Origin: Chondrosia reniformis
Lineage: Eukaryota; Porifera; Demospongiae; Chondrillida; Chondrillidae
DNA length: 64,000 bases
Direction: 5' to 3'
Assembly (NCBI GenBank): GCA_947172415.1
Contig: OX359190.1
Location: forward strand, 5,518,001 to 5,582,000
Shown here: positions 55,966-64,000 of the stretch, piece by piece
How positions within the stretch are numbered: the stretch's first letter is position 1
How the letters are laid out: each line of letters begins with the position of its first letter
Position numbers and translations under genes: made by a program
The notes under the pieces: generated by a model
The model's input: only the letters and a program-made list of their open reading frames with translations
Databases searched by the model: none
Told to the model about the DNA's origin: nothing

Positions 55966-56277
55966 ATATGTACTAGTTGTCTGCCCTAGTTTTCTGTACT
56001 AGTTGCATATACTAGTTATGTACTAGTTGTATCTACTAGTTGTATGTACTAGTTGTATGTACTGGTTGTATGTACTAGTTGTATGTACTAGTTTTATGTA
56101 CTATTTATATATACTAGTTATATATACTATTTATATGCACTAGTTATATGTGTATGCTCTAGTTTTATGACTACTTGTATGTAAAAGTTGTATGTACTAG
56201 TTGTATTTACTACTTGTATGTGCTAGCTTTATGTACTAGTTGCATATACTAATTGTATGTACTAGTTGTAGGCATTA
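55966..56277 (+). repeat. 13-bp minisatellite, TG orientation, right end of the array
   Basis: The last block. After 56,277 no more 13-bp units appear in the window, so this is the right border of the array. Confidence 0.9.
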
Positions 56278-56807: not shown

Positions 56808-57695
56808 AGAAAGACGTTCTATGTGTGTCTAAATTTGAACGAATGCAGCTTGGTAGAGCTATTCCATGTATGTCTGAGAGTTGTACGAGTGTAGCTTAGC
56901 ACAGGCGTTCTACCTGTGTTTACAGTTGTACGAGTATAGCTTAGTAGAGCCTGACAGAGGCGTTCTAAGTGTATCTAAAGTTGTATGGGTGTAGTTTGAC
57001 AGAAGTGTTCTTCGTGTGTCTAAGTTTGTACAAGTGTAGCTTAGCAGAGGTGTTCTACGTGTGTCTAAAGTTGTACTTAGCAGAGGCGTTCTACGTACGT
57101 GTGTCTCGAGTTGTATACGTGTAGCTTGAAAGAGGTGTTCTTAGTGTATCTAAAAAGTTGTATGAGTGTAGCTTGACAGGGGCGTTCTAAGTCTGTCTGA
57201 AGTTGTTCGAGTGTATAGCTTAGCAGAGGGGTTCTAAGTGTGTCTAAGGTTGTTCGAGGGTAGCTTAGCAGAGGCACTCTAAGTCTGTCTAAAGTTGTTC
57301 GAGTGTATAGCTTAGCAGAGGGGTTCTAAGCGTGTCTAAAGTTGTACGAGTGTAGCTTAGCAGAGGGGTTCTACGTGTGTTTAAAGTTGTTCGAGTGTGA
57401 CTTGACAGAGGCGTTCTAAGTGTGTCTAAAGTTGTTCGAGTGTAACTTGACAGAGGCATTCTAAGTCTGTCTAAAGTTGTTCGAGTATAGCTTAGCAGAG
57501 GGGTTCTACGTGTGTCCAGAATTGTATGAGTGTAGCTTAGAAAAGGAGTTCTAAGTGTGTCTAAAGGTTATGAGTGTAGGTAACTTTGCTGAGGAGTTTA
57601 AGTCTATCTAAGTTGTATGATTGTAGCCTGACAGAAGTGTTCTACGTGTGTCTAAGGTTGTACAAGTGTAGCTTAGCAGAGGCGTTCTACCTGTG
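56808..57695 (+). repeat. 45-bp minisatellite, about 20 copies
   Basis: Unit close to GTGTGTCTAAAGTTGTACGA + GTGTAGCTTAGCAGAGGCGT + TCTAC (44-45 bp). Copies vary at GTTGTACGA/GTTGTTCGA and TTAGCAGAGG/TTGACAGAGG, and these two variants alternate in the middle of the array, hinting at a two-unit higher-order period. Unrelated to the 13-bp repeat. Bases 57,696-57,860 after it are unique with no gene. Confidence 0.9.
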
Positions 57696-57860
57696 TCTGA
57701 TGTTGTCTGTACTTATAGCACTACAACTGTAACTTATCTCATTGTACAAATTGTGTAGGCGATCATCGTCTTTACTCAACCCTTTTTTAATCGCATGTGA
57801 CATAAAAAGTCCTGCAATGGATAGATCTCATGTTTGTGAAAAAGAGTTGATTAGACATTA

Positions 57861-59100
57861 AACTTTAGAAACAAAAGCCTTAATGGAGAACCTTGTTACT
57901 TCTTGCCTTAGCTTACTAAGGCAAGGAGTATCCGCCTTGGACAACCCTCAGTCAGTTATGTTTTCCTTTCTTTGGGTTTTTAGCCAGAAGCCTCGGCTTT
58001 GCCTCCTTCCGGCAGCAGCAGACAGGTGCACGTCGGGCCAAAGTTGACCGTCATAATAGGAGGGAGTACCTCCATACACAAATCCACCACTACTTTCCAG
58101 AGGTCGACAGGCAAGGACTGGGACAGGACTACTTATCGTCCAGGCCCCAATCCCTCAACAGATAGATGTCGCCTCAATATCCTTACAGCCGAGCAGAGAA
58201 CAGTTCTCTGCATCGCTCTCATCACTTCTATTGCACTTTTTGACAGCTTTGGAATTCCACTTAGGTCTTCCAAGAGCGTGTCCACTGTCCCCAAAGCACC
58301 AATTATCATCGGGACTACCTTAATTCGGTAGCCCCTAAATTGTTTCCTCATATCAGCCGCCAGCTTCTGGTACTTTTGGAACTTCTCTTGCCATCTTCCA
58401 TTAATATTACTGTCAGTAGGAACTGACATCTCAATAATGAAGATGGACTTACATAGCCGATCCTCAACCACTAAGTCTGGCCTTCTTTCTGTCATTTCAT
58501 CATCTGTAGGGATACTAGGATCCCACAAGATTTTGACAGCCCTATTCTCATAGACTGGTTTTGCTTCTAGTTTGTACCAGGGCTCTTCCTGCTTGAATCC
58601 ATATTCTTTCAACCGTCTCAACAACACTATCAGTATTGCCCGGTCATGTCTCTCTTTGTAGAGAGAAAATCCCTTGGGCTCACACATGTTTAGTATGTGT
58701 TTGACCGTTTCCATAGCCTTGCCACATTCTCTGCACATTAGGAGGCTAGAATTCTTCAGAATCCTATTTTGGTACCACCTAGTGTGCAGGACATCATCTT
58801 GGGCTGCGAGAATCAGAGCCTTAGTTTGAGGTCTGAGTCTCCCCTCAGAAAGCCACACATAAGACTCCCTATTTGTGACTTGTCTGTGGTATGAGCCTGG
58901 TGAGACTTTTCGGCTAGGTTACTTTTTAACCTTTTAGTCTGAGCCTCCAGGAGCTCACGTGCCACTCTCCTCCATTCTCTTACACTATTTTGTGAGGGAT
59001 CTGTCTTCAGCTACATTTCCGGTTCTAGTTCTATTCTGTGGCTTCTCAGTATCAATCTGGCTTCTTTCAAGACAGTCCTCCTCTGCTTTGAGCACTCCCA
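57861..59100 (-). mobile_element. RLE-type LINE, 5'-truncated copy
   Basis: Minus-strand copy sharing the 3' terminus (TTTAGAAACAAAAGCCTTA at 57,861 on the plus strand) with the 37,538-40,953 copy. It covers the end of the reverse transcriptase linker, the knuckle, the endonuclease and the 3' untranslated region. Identity breaks off at about 59,098 (after GAGCACTCC), typical 5' truncation of a LINE. No clear target duplication. Confidence 0.88.
58133..58858 (-). pseudogene. RLE LINE zinc knuckle + restriction-like endonuclease
   Basis: An open 241-codon frame: WLSEGRLRPQTKALILAAQD, knuckle CRECGKAMETVKHILNMC (CX2CX8HX4C, residues about 42-59), FSLYKERHDRAI, nuclease core RRPDLVVEDR...IFIIEMSVPTDSN (residues about 130-155; Asp and Glu of a PD-(D/E)XK fold), KYQKLAADMRKQF, and tail LRRHLSVEGLGPGR. 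Upstream the frame is lost by a one-base deletion near 58,898 (CACCAGGCTC against CACCAGGGCTC). The intact knuckle shows what the 40-kb copy lost. Only the C-terminal part of a protein, so not functional alone. Confidence 0.85.
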
Positions 59101-60549
59101 TCCTCTTGTCAGCTCGGAACCACAGCCTCCAATTCCCACGACATTAAACATTAAACAACCTTAAAATTAATATTGGTTAATCGTCTTGACTATCTTTTAT
59201 TTTCCCGAATCAGGTTAATTAATGAATAATTAATTACGTAAACAATGCATATAAATGTTTATAGTTCTACTGAAAGAAAATGTTCCCGCCTTCAGAAACA
59301 TTTATTGAATGGAACGTATAAAGGAAAAAAAGAGAAAAATTATTAAATTTTTTACATATATTATACATTCAACTGTTGGCATGTTGTTTACCATTGAACC
59401 CTTACCCCTTCTACCCACATTGCTTTTGGGGAGTTGCATCTTTTTCACATCCCCCTGAAGCCAAAGTTGTAGAACCTACATCTCTACTAAAGTCTTACAG
59501 TACATTTAGGCTGTAAGTTTACTTCTAACTTAAATTAGATTTCCGTGTTTACAAACATGACAGTATTTGGTTATAAACTGTTTATAATAAACACTGTAAT
59601 GTTTGTATCATCTATTGATAATAATGCTAAGCAGTCATAAGAAGCGTACGCCAAAGACAAAGACGGAGCCTGCCAAATAAATACACTAGTCTTTTGCGCT
59701 CTGAAAGCCCTATTTTTTAGGCATATTACATGATATCCATAATTATGTCAGGCGCCAGGAATCATCCCAGAACAGTGAACATGGAAAAAACAGTAAGAAA
59801 GGCTGCACAGAACACAGCCAACTTAGCCATCATTGATTTGTAAAGTGACAATATTGTATGTGTGAGTTTTATTGATAATTATGCGAGGCAATAACTGGGC
59901 GCACGAATTTCTATTGCACTATTTAATTGCTGTATTTATAAAAATCGACAACACTAACTTCAAGCATGTCGCAATGAATTACTTCTTCAAGCGTTGATAC
60001 TGAACGTGTTTGTAGAAGAATCAGCGACAGCGGAAATAATGTTGAAGTGGCCATTTTTGAGTAAGTCAAAATCATCACTTCTGTTTACTATATAATAGTT
60101 ATTATTAGTTCAGAATTGTGCCTTCATGTGATTCTAGAAGACTGTGGGTGGGGCAGTTGTCTAGAGGTGGTGGGTGGGGCAGCTAGCTGCTCAAGGGGTG
60201 GCGCTAATCTTGATAGACAAGATCGAATTCATATAAAAAGGGCTAATGTGTTTAGAGGCCAAATTTTCGAAAATCTCAATAATTTTTCAGATGCTAACAA
60301 TTGTATCTTTATCTTTAAGTTGTTCTATGCTGTGTGACAGGGTGTTCTTTTGTATATATATTAGCTGCCTTTCTATTCTTTATTCCATGCTATAGATGTC
60401 TGAACCATGAACAATACATAGAATGTATGCACTCTAACACCACTCCATTTGCATACATCTCACATGAACAGACTGTCATGATAGGCACTATCTAAAAACA
60501 TAATTACACTCAGTCTGTCATTTCTTGGCTCTGTTTCTGGAGTCAAAGT
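59101..60549. other. 1.4-kb region without a recognisable gene
   Basis: AT-rich unique DNA. It contains a GAATTAATGAATAATTAATT-like AT patch (59,215-59,235), GTTTATAATAAACACTG (59,580), a good donor-like sequence TTTTTGAGTAAGT (60,053-60,065) and the promoter-like block annotated separately. The frame at 60,116-60,337 overlaps that block and shows no motif. Confidence 0.6.
60144..60240 (+). promoter_or_regulatory. Candidate RNA polymerase II core promoter
   Basis: Two exact copies of GTGGGTGGGGCAG (60,144-60,156 and 60,170-60,182, 26 bp apart; GT/GC-box-like) followed 50 bp later by TATAAAAAG (60,232-60,240). Spacing of proximal boxes to a TATA element is plausible and the Helitron frame starts about 550 bp downstream. 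Motif-based inference only. Confidence 0.4.
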
Positions 60550-60780
60550 AAATCACCCTGTGGCTGGAGTCGATTACCCTGTGGCTGGGGTTGCTCACCC
60601 TGTGGCTGGGGTCAATTACCCTGTGGCTGGGGGTGCACACCCTGTGGCTGGGGTCAATTACCCTGTGGCTAGGGTTGCCAACCCTGTGACTGGGGTTACT
60701 CACCCTGTGACTGGGGTCCTGGACCTAGCTGCCGGGGTCCTGCACCCTCATTCTGGGGTCACTCACACTGTATCTGGAAT
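60545..60780 (+). repeat. 21-bp minisatellite, about 11 copies
   Basis: Unit ACCCTGTGGCTGGGGTCAAT (plus one base) with the GTCAATT/GTTGCTC/GTGCACA variants. Because 21 is a multiple of three, both strands stay open (VAGVNYP on plus, SHRVIDP on minus), which explains the frames at 60,560-60,832 and 60,518-60,703. I do not regard these as genes. The array lies just upstream of the Helitron frame. Confidence 0.85.
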
Positions 60781-60783
60781 GGA

Positions 60784-61242
60784 TTGTCTTGTGTTTGGCA
60801 ATCTGAAATATGTACTTCTACTTACAGTATGATCCATGAAATAAAAATGTACACTGACCTTAATGAAATGAACCTTGACGGTTTCACAATCCTTATGTCA
60901 GTAACATATGAGCCTTGCCATGGTCATATTACAACTAATTCCTTGGAGTACCATGACATTCCAATGAAGCATTATCATTTGGTTTTTGTATTGCACAAGA
61001 ATATGTGCATCCATCAACGAAAACAATGGTTCAGGTGTACATTGCATCACCTGCTACGCAGAAGGCGCTACTGTAAGGGCAACTTTCGCTTAGCTTGTTC
61101 ATTAAGTATACTGCTATTGCTGGGTGGAGATGTTGAACTGAACCCAGGCCCACGTCAGAATGAGATACATGATGAACTGACAATGCCTACATCAGCTGTT
61201 AATCCAGTTATGGACCAAACTGGAATTGACAGTCAAGAATAA
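60784..61242 (+). CDS. Helitron N-terminal leader with 2A-like motif
   Basis: 152 codons: no recognisable domain in the first 100 residues, then a basic run (LLRRRRYCKG), a hydrophobic stretch (FRLACSLSILLLLG) and GDVELNPGP at about residues 115-123, then 29 more residues to TAA (61,240-61,242). The next frame starts with ATG immediately after this stop in the same reading frame, so leader and Helitron protein were probably one polyprotein interrupted by one nonsense codon. The start is uncertain: TACTTCTACTTACAG at 60,815-60,829 is a good splice acceptor, so the coding exon may begin at 60,830 with the ATG at 60,831. In animals such leucine-rich leader plus 2A arrangements are known at the N-termini of some LINE and NLR proteins. 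Confidence 0.65.
   Translation: MSCVWQSEICTSTYSMIHEIKMYTDLNEMNLDGFTILMSVTYEPCHGHITTNSLEYHDIPMKHYHLVFVLHKNMCIHQRKQWFRCTLHHLLRRRRYCKGNFRLACSLSILLLLGGDVELNPGPRQNEIHDELTMPTSAVNPVMDQTGIDSQE
61126..61152 (+). other. 2A ribosome-skipping motif (GDVELNPG/P)
   Basis: Matches the complete D(V/I)ExNPG/P consensus, with the leucine-rich upstream context usual for active 2As. In known 2As the ribosome fails to form the Gly-Pro bond, here between codons ending 61,149 and starting 61,150, releasing the leader and continuing with Pro. Activity is inferred from the consensus. Confidence 0.85.
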
Positions 61243-61890
61243 ATGGACAGTGCAATAAAGAAATGTTCTACACTGGCCATGCTGTCAGCATGTCAGAGAA
61301 AGCGGCTAGATGCTGAAACAGTTGAAGAGCACCGTATAAGATTATTAATAATGTCAGAGAACCAGAGACTGCGGCTGCAATATGAGACTGAGAAGCAAGG
61401 TGCTGTGAGGCTTGCTGCACTCACTGAAAATAACAGGAAATGGCTGTACTCAGAAACCAAGGAAAATCGTGCAACAAGACTTGCCACCCTCTCTGAAAAT
61501 CAGAGTAAGAGGTTGCAGTCAGAAAGCAATGAAGATCGTGCTGCAAGACTTGCCACCCTCTCTGAAAATCAGAGTAAGAGGCTGCAGTCAGAAAGCAGTG
61601 CAGATGGTGCTGCAAGACTTACCACCCTCTCTGAAAATCAGAGTAAGAGGTTGCAGTCAGAAAGCAATGAAGATCGTGCTGCAAGACTTGCCACCCTCTC
61701 TGAAAATCAGAGTAAGAGGTTGCAGTCAGAAAGCAATGAAGATCGTGCTGAAAGACTTGGTACCCTCTCTGAAAATCAGAGGAAGAGGTTGCAGTCTAAA
61801 TCGACTAAAAAACAGGAGTCAAGACTGAGCAGCAGTAACAAATTTAAGAAAACAAGATTGATTAATGAATCTAAACAAAAAATACTCTAA
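61243..61890 (+). pseudogene. Helitron N-terminal 23-aa repeat region
   Basis: 215 codons, mostly a 69-bp tandem repeat (exact period; starts at 61,491, 61,560, 61,629 and on) encoding units of the type RLATLSENQSKRLQSESNED plus RAA. About six to seven units of heptad-like charged helix, probably coiled coil. Such ENQRxRLQ/RLA repeats often precede the DUF6570 region in Helitron proteins. The frame ends at 61,888-61,890; a one-base slip in the A-run near 61,875 restores it (the other frame continues LEREKEQARLRMQAWRRQ). Confidence 0.8.
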
Positions 61891-62192
61891 GACTGGAGAG
61901 AGAAAAAGAGCAAGCAAGATTAAGAATGCAAGCATGGAGGAGGCAAAAACGTAACTCAGAAGGAGAAATAACCAGTAGTGTGCCATGTACTAGCATTGTT
62001 TCAAATACCAAGGTAAATGTGACCCGCATTAGTTCAATTTATGAATCCACTGATGGGTTGGAGAGTGACAGTTTGAAGGAAGTTCAAAGAGAATCAACCC
62101 AAAGTGATGATTCAGTCATGGATGATACTGGTAAGGAAAATCTTATCAGCCAAAGTCTGAAGAGGTGGACATGGAAGTGGGTGGAAGTGTAA
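61881..62192 (+). pseudogene. Helitron linker segment, frameshifted
   Basis: Continues the protein in another frame from about 61,881 (LEREKEQARLRM, then QAWRRQKRNSEGE) through a Ser/Thr/Asp-rich linker to about 62,150, where the frame shifts again (KSEEVDMEVGG in the third frame). No domain recognised in the linker. Confidence 0.7.
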
Positions 62193-62929
62193 TTGAGTCT
62201 GGTGTTGTTACTGCATCTGCTGTGCAAGTACCAAGACTTGAGATTTCAATACCATCAAAACAAGCTTTAAAGTTGAAAAATAACTTACATAAATTTGAAA
62301 AAGCAATTCTTAAGGGGCCGACCCATAAGTGTTTTTCATGTAAAAGGTCGTGCTCTGACCAGTTGGGTGCCCTGTACAGCTGCGATGTGGCAAATGATCT
62401 ACTTGCTGTGGTGAATGAATCAGTTCAAGAAAGTATAGAAAGTGTTTGGTTGTGTAACAAGTGCAAGAGTGCTATGGAAAGAAAGAAAATTCCAGCAGGA
62501 TCACAGATTAATAAAATGAAAGTACCAGAGGTCCCTTCAGTGTTCATTGGACTAAACACATTAGAGCAGCGTTTGATTTCAAAGGCTACTGTTTTCATGA
62601 AAATGACCAATTTGCCAAGGGGTGGAAAAAGGGCTGTTAGAGGCCAGGTAATCACTTTTCCCTCTAATGTTGACTGTGTCATTTCAGAGCTCCCTCGTTT
62701 ACCCAGTGGTGAAGATATTCTTTACATTCAGCAGCCAGACTCTATTGGAAGTAAACCAAATGGCTCTGTCCCTGATACAATTTACCAAACCTGTCGATAC
62801 TCCAATGTGATGCAAGCTCTGAAATGGTTAGAGCAACATAACCCCTTGTATGGTGACATCACCATCACTAAGATGTCAGAAGACATGTTCAACCATAAAG
62901 AAGAAAAGTCACTGACGGTGAAAATGTGA
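62150..62929 (+). pseudogene. Helitron DUF6570-like zinc region
   Basis: About 255 codons. Cys pairs CFSCKRSC...SCDV...WLCNKC (62,329-62,466) look like a zinc-binding site; then IPAGSQINKMKVPEVPSVF, LNTLEQRLISKATVFMKM, GQVITFPSNVDCVISELPRL. This block is the DUF6570 region found N-terminal to the Rep domain in many animal Helitron proteins. The frame fails at 62,927-62,929; the adjacent frame continues (NVNEDILEMDET, then TAA at 62,959-62,961, then LDALQPVVEAVNLIQ) to about 63,058, where a further shift leads to the next domain. Confidence 0.8.
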
Positions 62930-63059: not shown

Positions 63060-63490
63060 CAACCACACCACTAAGTATATTTGAGAATCAAAATGATTTA
63101 GAAGTATTGGCTTTTCCGACCCTTTACCCCAATGGTGAAAATGGTTTTGGCACCATCAGAGAAGTCAAAGTTACACCTCTAGAATATTTGCAAAGAAGAA
63201 TGCTTAATGCTGACTCAAGATGGGCATGTCATCCTGCTAATATCTTTTGGGCCTGTAAAATTGTAGAAGCCCTGAAGTTGCAGAGCAGCATTTCCATTGC
63301 TATGAGGATGCGATCATTCAGAATAGGCCACTGTGAGAAGTCTAACAAGGAAACCAATGAGAAGGAGCTACTCACAGCTGGTTTGCTGCTAGGATGCCTG
63401 GAAAATAACCCTCACTTGCGTGAAAATTGTTATAGCTTCATGAGAGATATTCGTGGCACAAAGGCTTATTGGAACTCAGTAAAGATCTAG
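63060..63490 (+). pseudogene. Helitron helicase-like N domain, first part
   Basis: From about 63,060 (PLSIFENQNDLEVLAFPTLY) the frame holds PNGENGFGTIREVKVTPLEY, NADSRWACHPANIFWACK and IRGTKAYWNS, the beginning of the Helitron-like N (Rep) domain. The FP(T)LYP-G-G block and the TKAYW block are standard landmarks. The frame stops at 63,488-63,490; a frameshift at about 63,483 continues the domain. Confidence 0.85.
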
Positions 63491-64000
63491 CTATTTGCTA
63501 GGTCCTCCCACATTCTTTGTCCCACTGAGTGCTGACGATAATAATTGGGTGGACTTGATGATAGTGCTAAGCAGGAGTATGGGTCAGAATCTGTCAGAGG
63601 AACAGGCAGCTAATTTATCAGCCAGTGAGAGGAGAGAACTGATGAGGACAAATCCAGTGGTTACAGCTAGGCATTTTGCACATCGCTTTCAGTGCTTCCT
63701 CAGGGAAGTGATTAAAGGATCTGGGCAACCTATTGGTGAGGTAGTTGACTACTTTTGGAGAATTGAATTCCAGTTGAGGGGATCTCCACATATCCATTCC
63801 ATGTGGTGGATAAGGGATGCTCCAAACTTAGATACTACAGCTGGAAGGCAGATTGCTCCACAGTACATTGATAGGTACATTTCTGTGAATATTCCAACAC
63901 AAGGTTGCAAAGATGAAGAACTTCATTCATTGGTGTTGAGAGTGCAGCAGCACCATCATACATCAACTTGCAGGAAAGCAACACAAGGGGAAAAATGTGG
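63483..64000 (+). pseudogene. Helitron Rep (HUH endonuclease) domain, continues past window
   Basis: Open to the window end, starting SSYLLGPPTFFVPLSADDNN, then WVDLM, VVTARHFAHRFQCFLREVI, VVDYFWRIEFQLRGSPHIHS (HUH motif: His-hydrophobic-His), MWWIRDAP, and VQQHHHTSTCRK before a Cys. The catalytic Tyr and the Pif1-like helicase would lie to the right of 64,000. Role: nicking and rolling-circle replication of the transposon. This 172-codon stretch is intact, but the protein upstream carries at least seven disabling changes. Confidence 0.88.

Follow-up and report, generated by a model that had tools for sequence, protein, structure and literature searches.

A 2A-like motif between leader and Rep/helicase in Helitrons of the sponge Chondrosia reniformis

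Does a rolling-circle DNA transposon make use of ribosome skipping to separate its replication enzyme from an N-terminal leader? The question is raised by a 2A-like sequence, GDVELNPGP, at positions 61126–61152 (plus strand) of the window, the whole 64,000-nucleotide stretch of Chondrosia reniformis DNA analyzed here, upstream of the coding remains of a Helitron. As described in PMC4981915, the core D(V/I)ExNPGP and a suitable upstream context are common to 2A sequences, at which the ribosome skips the Gly-Pro bond. According to PMC12846837, RNA viruses often use such recoding whereas cellular genes seldom do, with LINEs and sea urchin NLRs as other cases in the account of PMC4981915. Our literature searches found no Helitron with a 2A, in keeping with the earlier note on this DNA, which knew of no well-described one, and 2A use in Helitrons is undescribed as far as these searches reach; a case could still be contained in Odon et al. 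2013 or in Rao et al. 2025 (Cell Rep. 44, 115822, cited in PMC12846837), which surveys 2A sequences from eukaryotes and viruses.

The motif and its surroundings in the window

The motif reads GGDVELNPGP from 61123, with its aspartate codon at 61129, and D[VI]ExNPGP occurs a single time across the six frames of the whole window. The open frame around it extends from 60673 to 61239, and all features described below lie on the plus strand unless stated otherwise. As the earlier note had claimed, the motif sits behind a basic, leucine-rich leader: the C-terminal leader part (60829–61125) consists of a basic segment, CIHQRKQWFRCTLHHLLRRRRYCKGN, followed by the leucine-rich LSILLLLG, and the predicted skip falls between the last glycine and the proline of the motif that it adjoins. 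The leader is probably longer than had been stated there, because the frame is open for 256–290 codons 5' of the motif in 11 of the 20 genomic copies fetched at 10 kb (see below). Its probable N-terminal part in the window (60325–60828) contains a hydrophobic stretch, SFVYILAAFLFFIP, and then 21-bp repeats reading PCGWG...; this segment aligns to copy L009 from residue 3 of the latter, and the corresponding frame is open in L009, L010, L011, and others.

Downstream of the motif, a linker of 29 codons (61153–61239) ends at a TAA (61240–61242), which is followed by an in-frame ATG at 61243. The Helitron protein proper starts here with STPR 23-residue repeats (61243–61887; PF21107, E = 7e-36), encoded by a 69-bp tandem repeat. 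That the leader frame continues into the Helitron protein with one TAA as the sole interruption is correct for these repeats and goes no further: DUF6570 (PF20209, E = 3.9e-21) is found in an open stretch in another frame (62135–62926), Helitron_like_N (Rep; PF14214, E = 9.1e-20) in one that runs off the window (63483–63998) and has HIHS in the position of the HUH motif, and two additional in-frame stops, a TAA at 60493 and a TAG at 60670, interrupt the leader on its 5' side. The window copy is a degenerate Helitron, given these two upstream stops and the downstream frame breaks. Tandem repeats of 13 bp (56000–56270) and 45 bp (56815–57706) adjoin the element in the window, and similar stretches lie beside other copies.

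Copies of the element and 2A sites across the genome

The genome searched comprises 117,379,552 bases in 15 contigs. A 137-residue leader piece (60829–61239) gave at least 84 matches, which merged to 76 loci, and Helitron_like_N gave at least 133, which merged to 119 loci, both lists being lower bounds. Twenty of the 76 leader loci, a non-random set with mostly long open frames, were fetched at 10 kb, and a readable 2A core is present in all 20. The earlier note had allowed that full-length copies might lack the leader; in four copies (L009, 2312 aa; L010, 2523; L011, 2510; L012, 2555), leader, 2A, and Rep/helicase are joined in a single open frame of 2312–2555 codons, with the 2A core beginning at residue 264–291. 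The core D(V/I)ExNPGP is in frame with the downstream protein in these four and broken from it in the window copy. Pfam finds DUF6570, Helitron_like_N, a PIF1-type helicase (PF05970), and OTU in both of the long copies scanned (L010 and L011), as well as STPR in L010, the repeat of L011 being a different one. By pattern scan, each of the four long copies has the two-histidine (HUH) and two-tyrosine motifs of the Rep along with a Walker A motif; in the window copy the two-histidine part of the Rep is present and the rest lies beyond the window.

The TAA followed directly by ATG in the window copy, together with a single stop between leader and repeats in L035, would suit a leader encoded as a separate upstream reading frame, in which case the Helitron protein would start at an ATG such as 61243 and the 2A would never be part of the same product. 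We regard this as extremely unlikely. The earlier note had left open whether the TAA is private, and it proved nearly so: among the 14 window-type and L010-type loci of the 20 fetched, a stop 29 codons after NPGP occurs only in L023, which is the window copy itself, and its near twin L022. Of nine loci inspected at this position, L022 and L023 read TAA and L019 and L024 read TAC (Tyr), the other five being without the exact search string. A shared, meaningful stop at 61240 is rejected on its presence in 2 of 14 loci; furthermore, the frame of L036 passes the stop of L035, and the four single-frame copies place leader and Helitron protein in one product.

A leader that belongs to a LINE inserted before the Helitron, another possibility raised by the earlier note, is ruled out as well, since the homology between copies is unbroken through the leader (98.5% identity over 5,556 bases for L009–L013) and the window's LINE-like repeat forms a unit of its own, 1.24 kb long and with its frame on the other strand. 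This repeat (57862–59098) carries a minus-strand open frame (58133–58918) that by eye resembles the end of a LINE protein, and 37 of the 40 long matches scored among 668 candidates share its ends or nearly so at 97–98% identity. In a comparison of L009 and L010, which represent two subfamilies, ∼700 bases 5' of and extending into the leader are 82–98% identical and the next leader windows 49–63%, a pattern that points either to 5' modules having been swapped or to constraint acting at the DNA level. Helitrons begin with 5'-TC, end with 3'-CTRR and a hairpin, and insert between A and T; here the ends of the element were fixed neither by block comparisons nor by scanning the 3' side of L010 for inverted repeats. 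Residues 1–420 of L010, used as a protein query, gave no match at E 0.001 among 2971 candidates.

To place these copies in a wider frame, 2A sites were counted over the genome with a degenerate 2A codon pattern, GAYRTNGARNNNAAYCCNGGNCC, which yielded 126 sites (lists of 35 and 91) versus 1 for the reversed pattern, so that a chance motif is ruled out. Of the 126 sites, 69 are followed on the same strand by Helitron_like_N at a distance of up to 5 kb; none has it at that distance upstream, and none on the opposite strand. Leader loci contain 58 of the sites, including 6 with no Rep match downstream. A further 17 have Rep downstream and no recognised leader, 14 of them encoding DVEVNPGP and 3 encoding D[MIV]EQNPGP, and 51 have neither. 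Viewed from the elements, the exact motif is kept in 58 of the 76 merged leader loci and stands upstream of 69 of the 119 Rep loci; the 18 leader loci and the 50 Rep loci without the exact pattern (within 5 kb upstream in the latter case) count intact and fragmentary copies together.

Some copies are arranged head to tail. On contig G000:C5, 2A sites at 4587408, 4599373, and 4611338 mark three Helitrons exactly 11,965 bases apart, with Rep matches at the same spacing, and on G000:C6 leader matches at 4212392 and 4223217 are 10,825 apart; these arrays resemble what might be leftovers of rolling-circle multimers. All 76 merged leader loci (G000:C1–C14) fall between 0.31 and 0.66 of chromosome length, a clustering that is possibly a pericentromeric build-up. 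The 51 other 2A sites range from 0.05 to 0.91, with 43 of them between 0.3 and 0.7.

Selection on the 2A region and the origin of the leaders

Selection on the leader was assessed from windowed pN/pS ratios in all three frames for seven copy pairs, which share members and are non-independent. In the window from residue −30 to the end of the core (38 residues ending NPGP), the in-frame ratio is low in all seven pairs (0.38, 0.33, 0.31, 0.13, 0.16, 0.26, and 0.33), compared with out-of-frame values of 0.42–1.73. This window has the lowest ratio along the leader in four pairs, is tied in one, and is undercut by one or two windows in the remaining two. Leader windows before residue −30 range from 0.28 to 1.91 in frame; in L014–L018 and L028–L018 the stretch from −110 to −30 gives 0.86–1.91 versus 0.13 and 0.16 in the 2A, and the N-terminal leader part of L009–L010 gives 0.98. 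Likewise, L009 and L011 agree at 27 of 38 residues in the 2A window, at 8 of 20 before it, and at 1 of 6 after it. The low in-frame ratios and the agreement between L009 and L011 thus indicate that the 2A is maintained at the protein level amid drifting surroundings, the leader being weakly constrained outside it. The conserved island is about as long as the >30 native residues that FMDV 2A needs for full activity, as described in PMC12846837.

For the PCGWG-repeat part (−180 to −140), evidence that it is a translated, constrained protein is mixed. L009 and L010 against L011 give 0.35 and 0.38 in frame versus 0.93–1.52 out of frame, whereas L011–L014 and L011–L018 give 1.08 and 0.92 in frame versus 0.41 and 0.30 in one other frame, and the lower ratio in another frame argues against protein constraint; in L009–L010 the changes are too few to discriminate frames.

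When 13 leaders were compared with their last 28 residues removed (cut-off E 0.01), they fell into separate groups: the window type (L009, L010, L011, L014, L018), L035/L036, L037–L039, and, among the LINE-like leaders, the pair L040/L049 and the single L045. Once the 2A is included, matches between the groups appear over the 2A region. Three Helitron leader groups therefore lack detectable similarity outside the 2A, and all end in the 2A core, which in L037 has M in place of V/I. A leucine- or isoleucine-rich context precedes the core in 25 Helitron loci (L009–L028, L035–L039). Before the aspartate, the L010 and L035 types have AG or SG, the window and L011 types GG, L037–L039 HG, and L024 GR. 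PMC12846837 describes a 2A class whose L-rich context ends in (A/S/C)G, and GG and GR do not exactly match this published ending.

Eleven of the 51 remaining 2A sites were fetched. Pfam identifies endonuclease domains after the 2A in four of them (L040, L045, L047, L049) and PHD in L040 and L050, the PHD of L049 being below its cut-off; L041, L042, and L044 resemble LINE endonuclease regions by eye, L043 is like a Helitron lineage, and L046 and L048 are unclassified. Judged by such domains, LINE-like elements with a 2A are present in the Helitron-bearing genome. Window-type leaders resemble the LINE leaders only over about the last 14–57 residues, and once the last 28 residues are removed no match between them is found at E 0.01.

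Related proteins of other genomes broaden the picture. A search with the L010 core collected 92 proteins, seven of which contain [DE]x[ED]xNPGP (P0003, P0004, P0005, P0007, P0037, P0039, P0077) and one a near form, GGVEKNPGP (P0031); a search with the L011 core collected 73, with the motif in five (P0093, P0097, P0105, P0107, P0159). The resulting 12 of 165 (153 being without the motif) is a floor and not a rate, because some records start at or after the leader position: P0093 begins four residues before the motif, P0001 and P0002 begin past the place of the leader, and several of the relatives whose N-termini were inspected begin inside the protein. The Ephydatia muelleri records P0110, P0147, and P0162 show no motif. 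Four proteins (P0003, P0004, P0005, P0007) contain two 2A motifs and would yield three products per frame. In P0105 and P0107, a PHD finger follows directly after the 2A. P0107 aligns to the LINE-like L049 over leader, 2A, and PHD (37.5% over 160 residues) and P0105 over 2A and PHD (43% over 113 residues), with E-values that apply to a small set. P0105 and P0107 share 43% identity over 263 residues, and the fusion is therefore not a single recent chimera.

Capture of the 2A from a LINE, which the earlier note had considered, is accordingly suggested for P0105 and P0107 and is not suggested for the window type, whose likeness to LINE leaders is confined to the vicinity of the 2A. One could go further and view the 2A leader as a LINE-derived N-terminus that has been a passenger since its capture and has no role in transposition, a reading to which the four LINE-like elements with 2A before an endonuclease and the 2A-PHD module of the two relatives lend some support. 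We think it improbable, however, as purifying selection on the motif window contrasts with drift in the rest of the leader, window-type leaders match LINE leaders near the 2A only, and the 2A is kept in three Helitron leader groups that are otherwise dissimilar. LINE origin and present function are in any case compatible rather than exclusive. With P0105 and P0107 it becomes testable whether LINEs and Helitrons exchange N-terminal modules, alongside the capture of a LINE endonuclease by Helentrons described in PMC4067079.

Element class and a model for leader release

The domains downstream of the leader are those of a Helitron rather than an endonuclease and reverse transcriptase, which rules out an APE-type LINE as the identity of the element. 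2A sequences of APE-type non-LTR retrotransposons were reportedly treated by Heras in 2006 and Odon in 2013. The layout is shared with such LINEs, in which D(V/I)ExNPGP likewise stands behind a short, often hydrophobic N-terminal leader and before the enzymes of a selfish element; the enzyme differs, being an endonuclease plus reverse transcriptase there and a rolling-circle Rep/helicase here, and apart from the 2A region the window-type leaders do not match those of the LINEs. Helentrons, as outlined in PMC4067079, have in common with these copies the Rep/helicase and an OTU-like protease (as an additional ORF), and their endonuclease is a precedent for a module obtained from LINEs, in that case CR1. 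In contrast, Pfam finds no endonuclease family in L010 and L011 at E 0.05, OTU is part of the same frame, and the LINE-like feature is N-terminal; Helentron membership is rejected given that the two copies scanned have no AP endonuclease, which in Helentrons is fused to the C-terminus. Helitron2, in the part of PMC4067079 that describes it, is similar in having one ORF for Rep/helicase and no endonuclease, and differs in that leader, 2A, and OTU are here within the frame.

We consider it very probable that Helitrons use 2A skipping to free Rep/helicase from the leader. A single polyprotein would be translated, consisting of the leader (up to ∼290 residues), the 2A, the repeat region, DUF6570, HUH Rep, PIF1-type helicase, and OTU protease (the last in the two copies scanned). 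At NPG^P the ribosome would fail to form the Gly-Pro bond, release the leader, and continue, such that Rep/helicase would be made as a separate protein that begins with proline and is freed from leader targeting. The likeliest use would be that the leader is still made but the enzyme stays clear of the secretory path, with any unskipped fraction sent elsewhere, because the leader starts with a signal-like hydrophobic stretch in several subfamilies. What the sequences show is a motif placed within single open frames, recurring in several Helitron lineages and genomes, and selected as protein; skipping activity, leader use, and ER targeting are inferred.

The hydrophobic stretches are unevenly distributed. 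A first Met followed by a hydrophobic 15-mer (mean 2.08–2.81, starting at residue 7–55) is present in 8 of the 25 Helitron loci (L009, L011, L012, L014, L018, L028, L035, L036), and the fraction of shuffles reaching the value is 0.15 for L011, 0.12 for L012, and 0.000–0.060 for the other six. A membrane- or ER-directed leader would fit these eight. In the remaining 17, the best 15-mer lies inside the 2A in 4, and none exceeds 1.15 after the first Met in 13; in L010, L026, and L027 no Met precedes the hydrophobic stretch of the open frame, which makes their start uncertain, and other loci are interrupted by stops. Four of the 11 other 2A sites fetched (L040, L044, L045, L049) display the same layout (1.83–2.75; shuffles 0.02–0.13).

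Dual targeting through 2A skipping is plausible by analogy, since a 2A signal sequence in sea urchin NLRs partitions the product between cytoplasm and exocytic path (Roulston 2016, PMC4981915) and ER translocation of some upstream sequences inhibits 2A cleavage in mammalian cells, yielding a fused product (PMC2978324). The urchin proteins, as described there, resemble these Helitrons in having an N-terminal 2A as signal sequence and recoding element, with skipping deciding between the two destinations. However, their 26-residue 2A is itself the signal, whereas several Helitron subfamilies have a long leader with its own hydrophobic stretch before the 2A, known here from sequence.

The same inhibition by ER translocation, together with a hydrophobic 15-mer (mean 1.53–2.93) within the last 28 leader residues of all 25 Helitron loci, would also agree with a membrane anchor or pausing peptide formed by the hydrophobic stretch and the NPGP core, the polyprotein staying fused. 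This we judge very unlikely: D, E, N, P, G, and P recur across Helitron leaders that differ elsewhere, so that more than hydrophobicity is kept. The recurrence is a biased count, because the loci were found or picked with the core in view, and the pN/pS test is the better evidence.

Here the 2A precedes the enzyme that replicates a DNA transposon; it does so across several lineages and genomes and is under selection. If release of Rep/helicase by skipping is confirmed, 2A use would extend to rolling-circle transposons. Such release may account for late-starting gene models of these Helitrons, and it offers a simple test of why selfish elements of different kinds place a skip site and a hydrophobic leader ahead of their enzymes. 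More tentatively, and with considerable doubt, rolling-circle transposons may have acquired 2A leaders repeatedly, partly from LINEs, and use skipping as a translational switch, in which the skipped product would enter the nucleus as transposase, the leader or unskipped fusion would go to the ER or out of the cell, and transposition would be tuned by translational conditions. In P0159, one of the Helitron proteins from other genomes, the 2A is preceded by a leader of great length (residues 1–345) that is hydrophobic and rich in cysteine.
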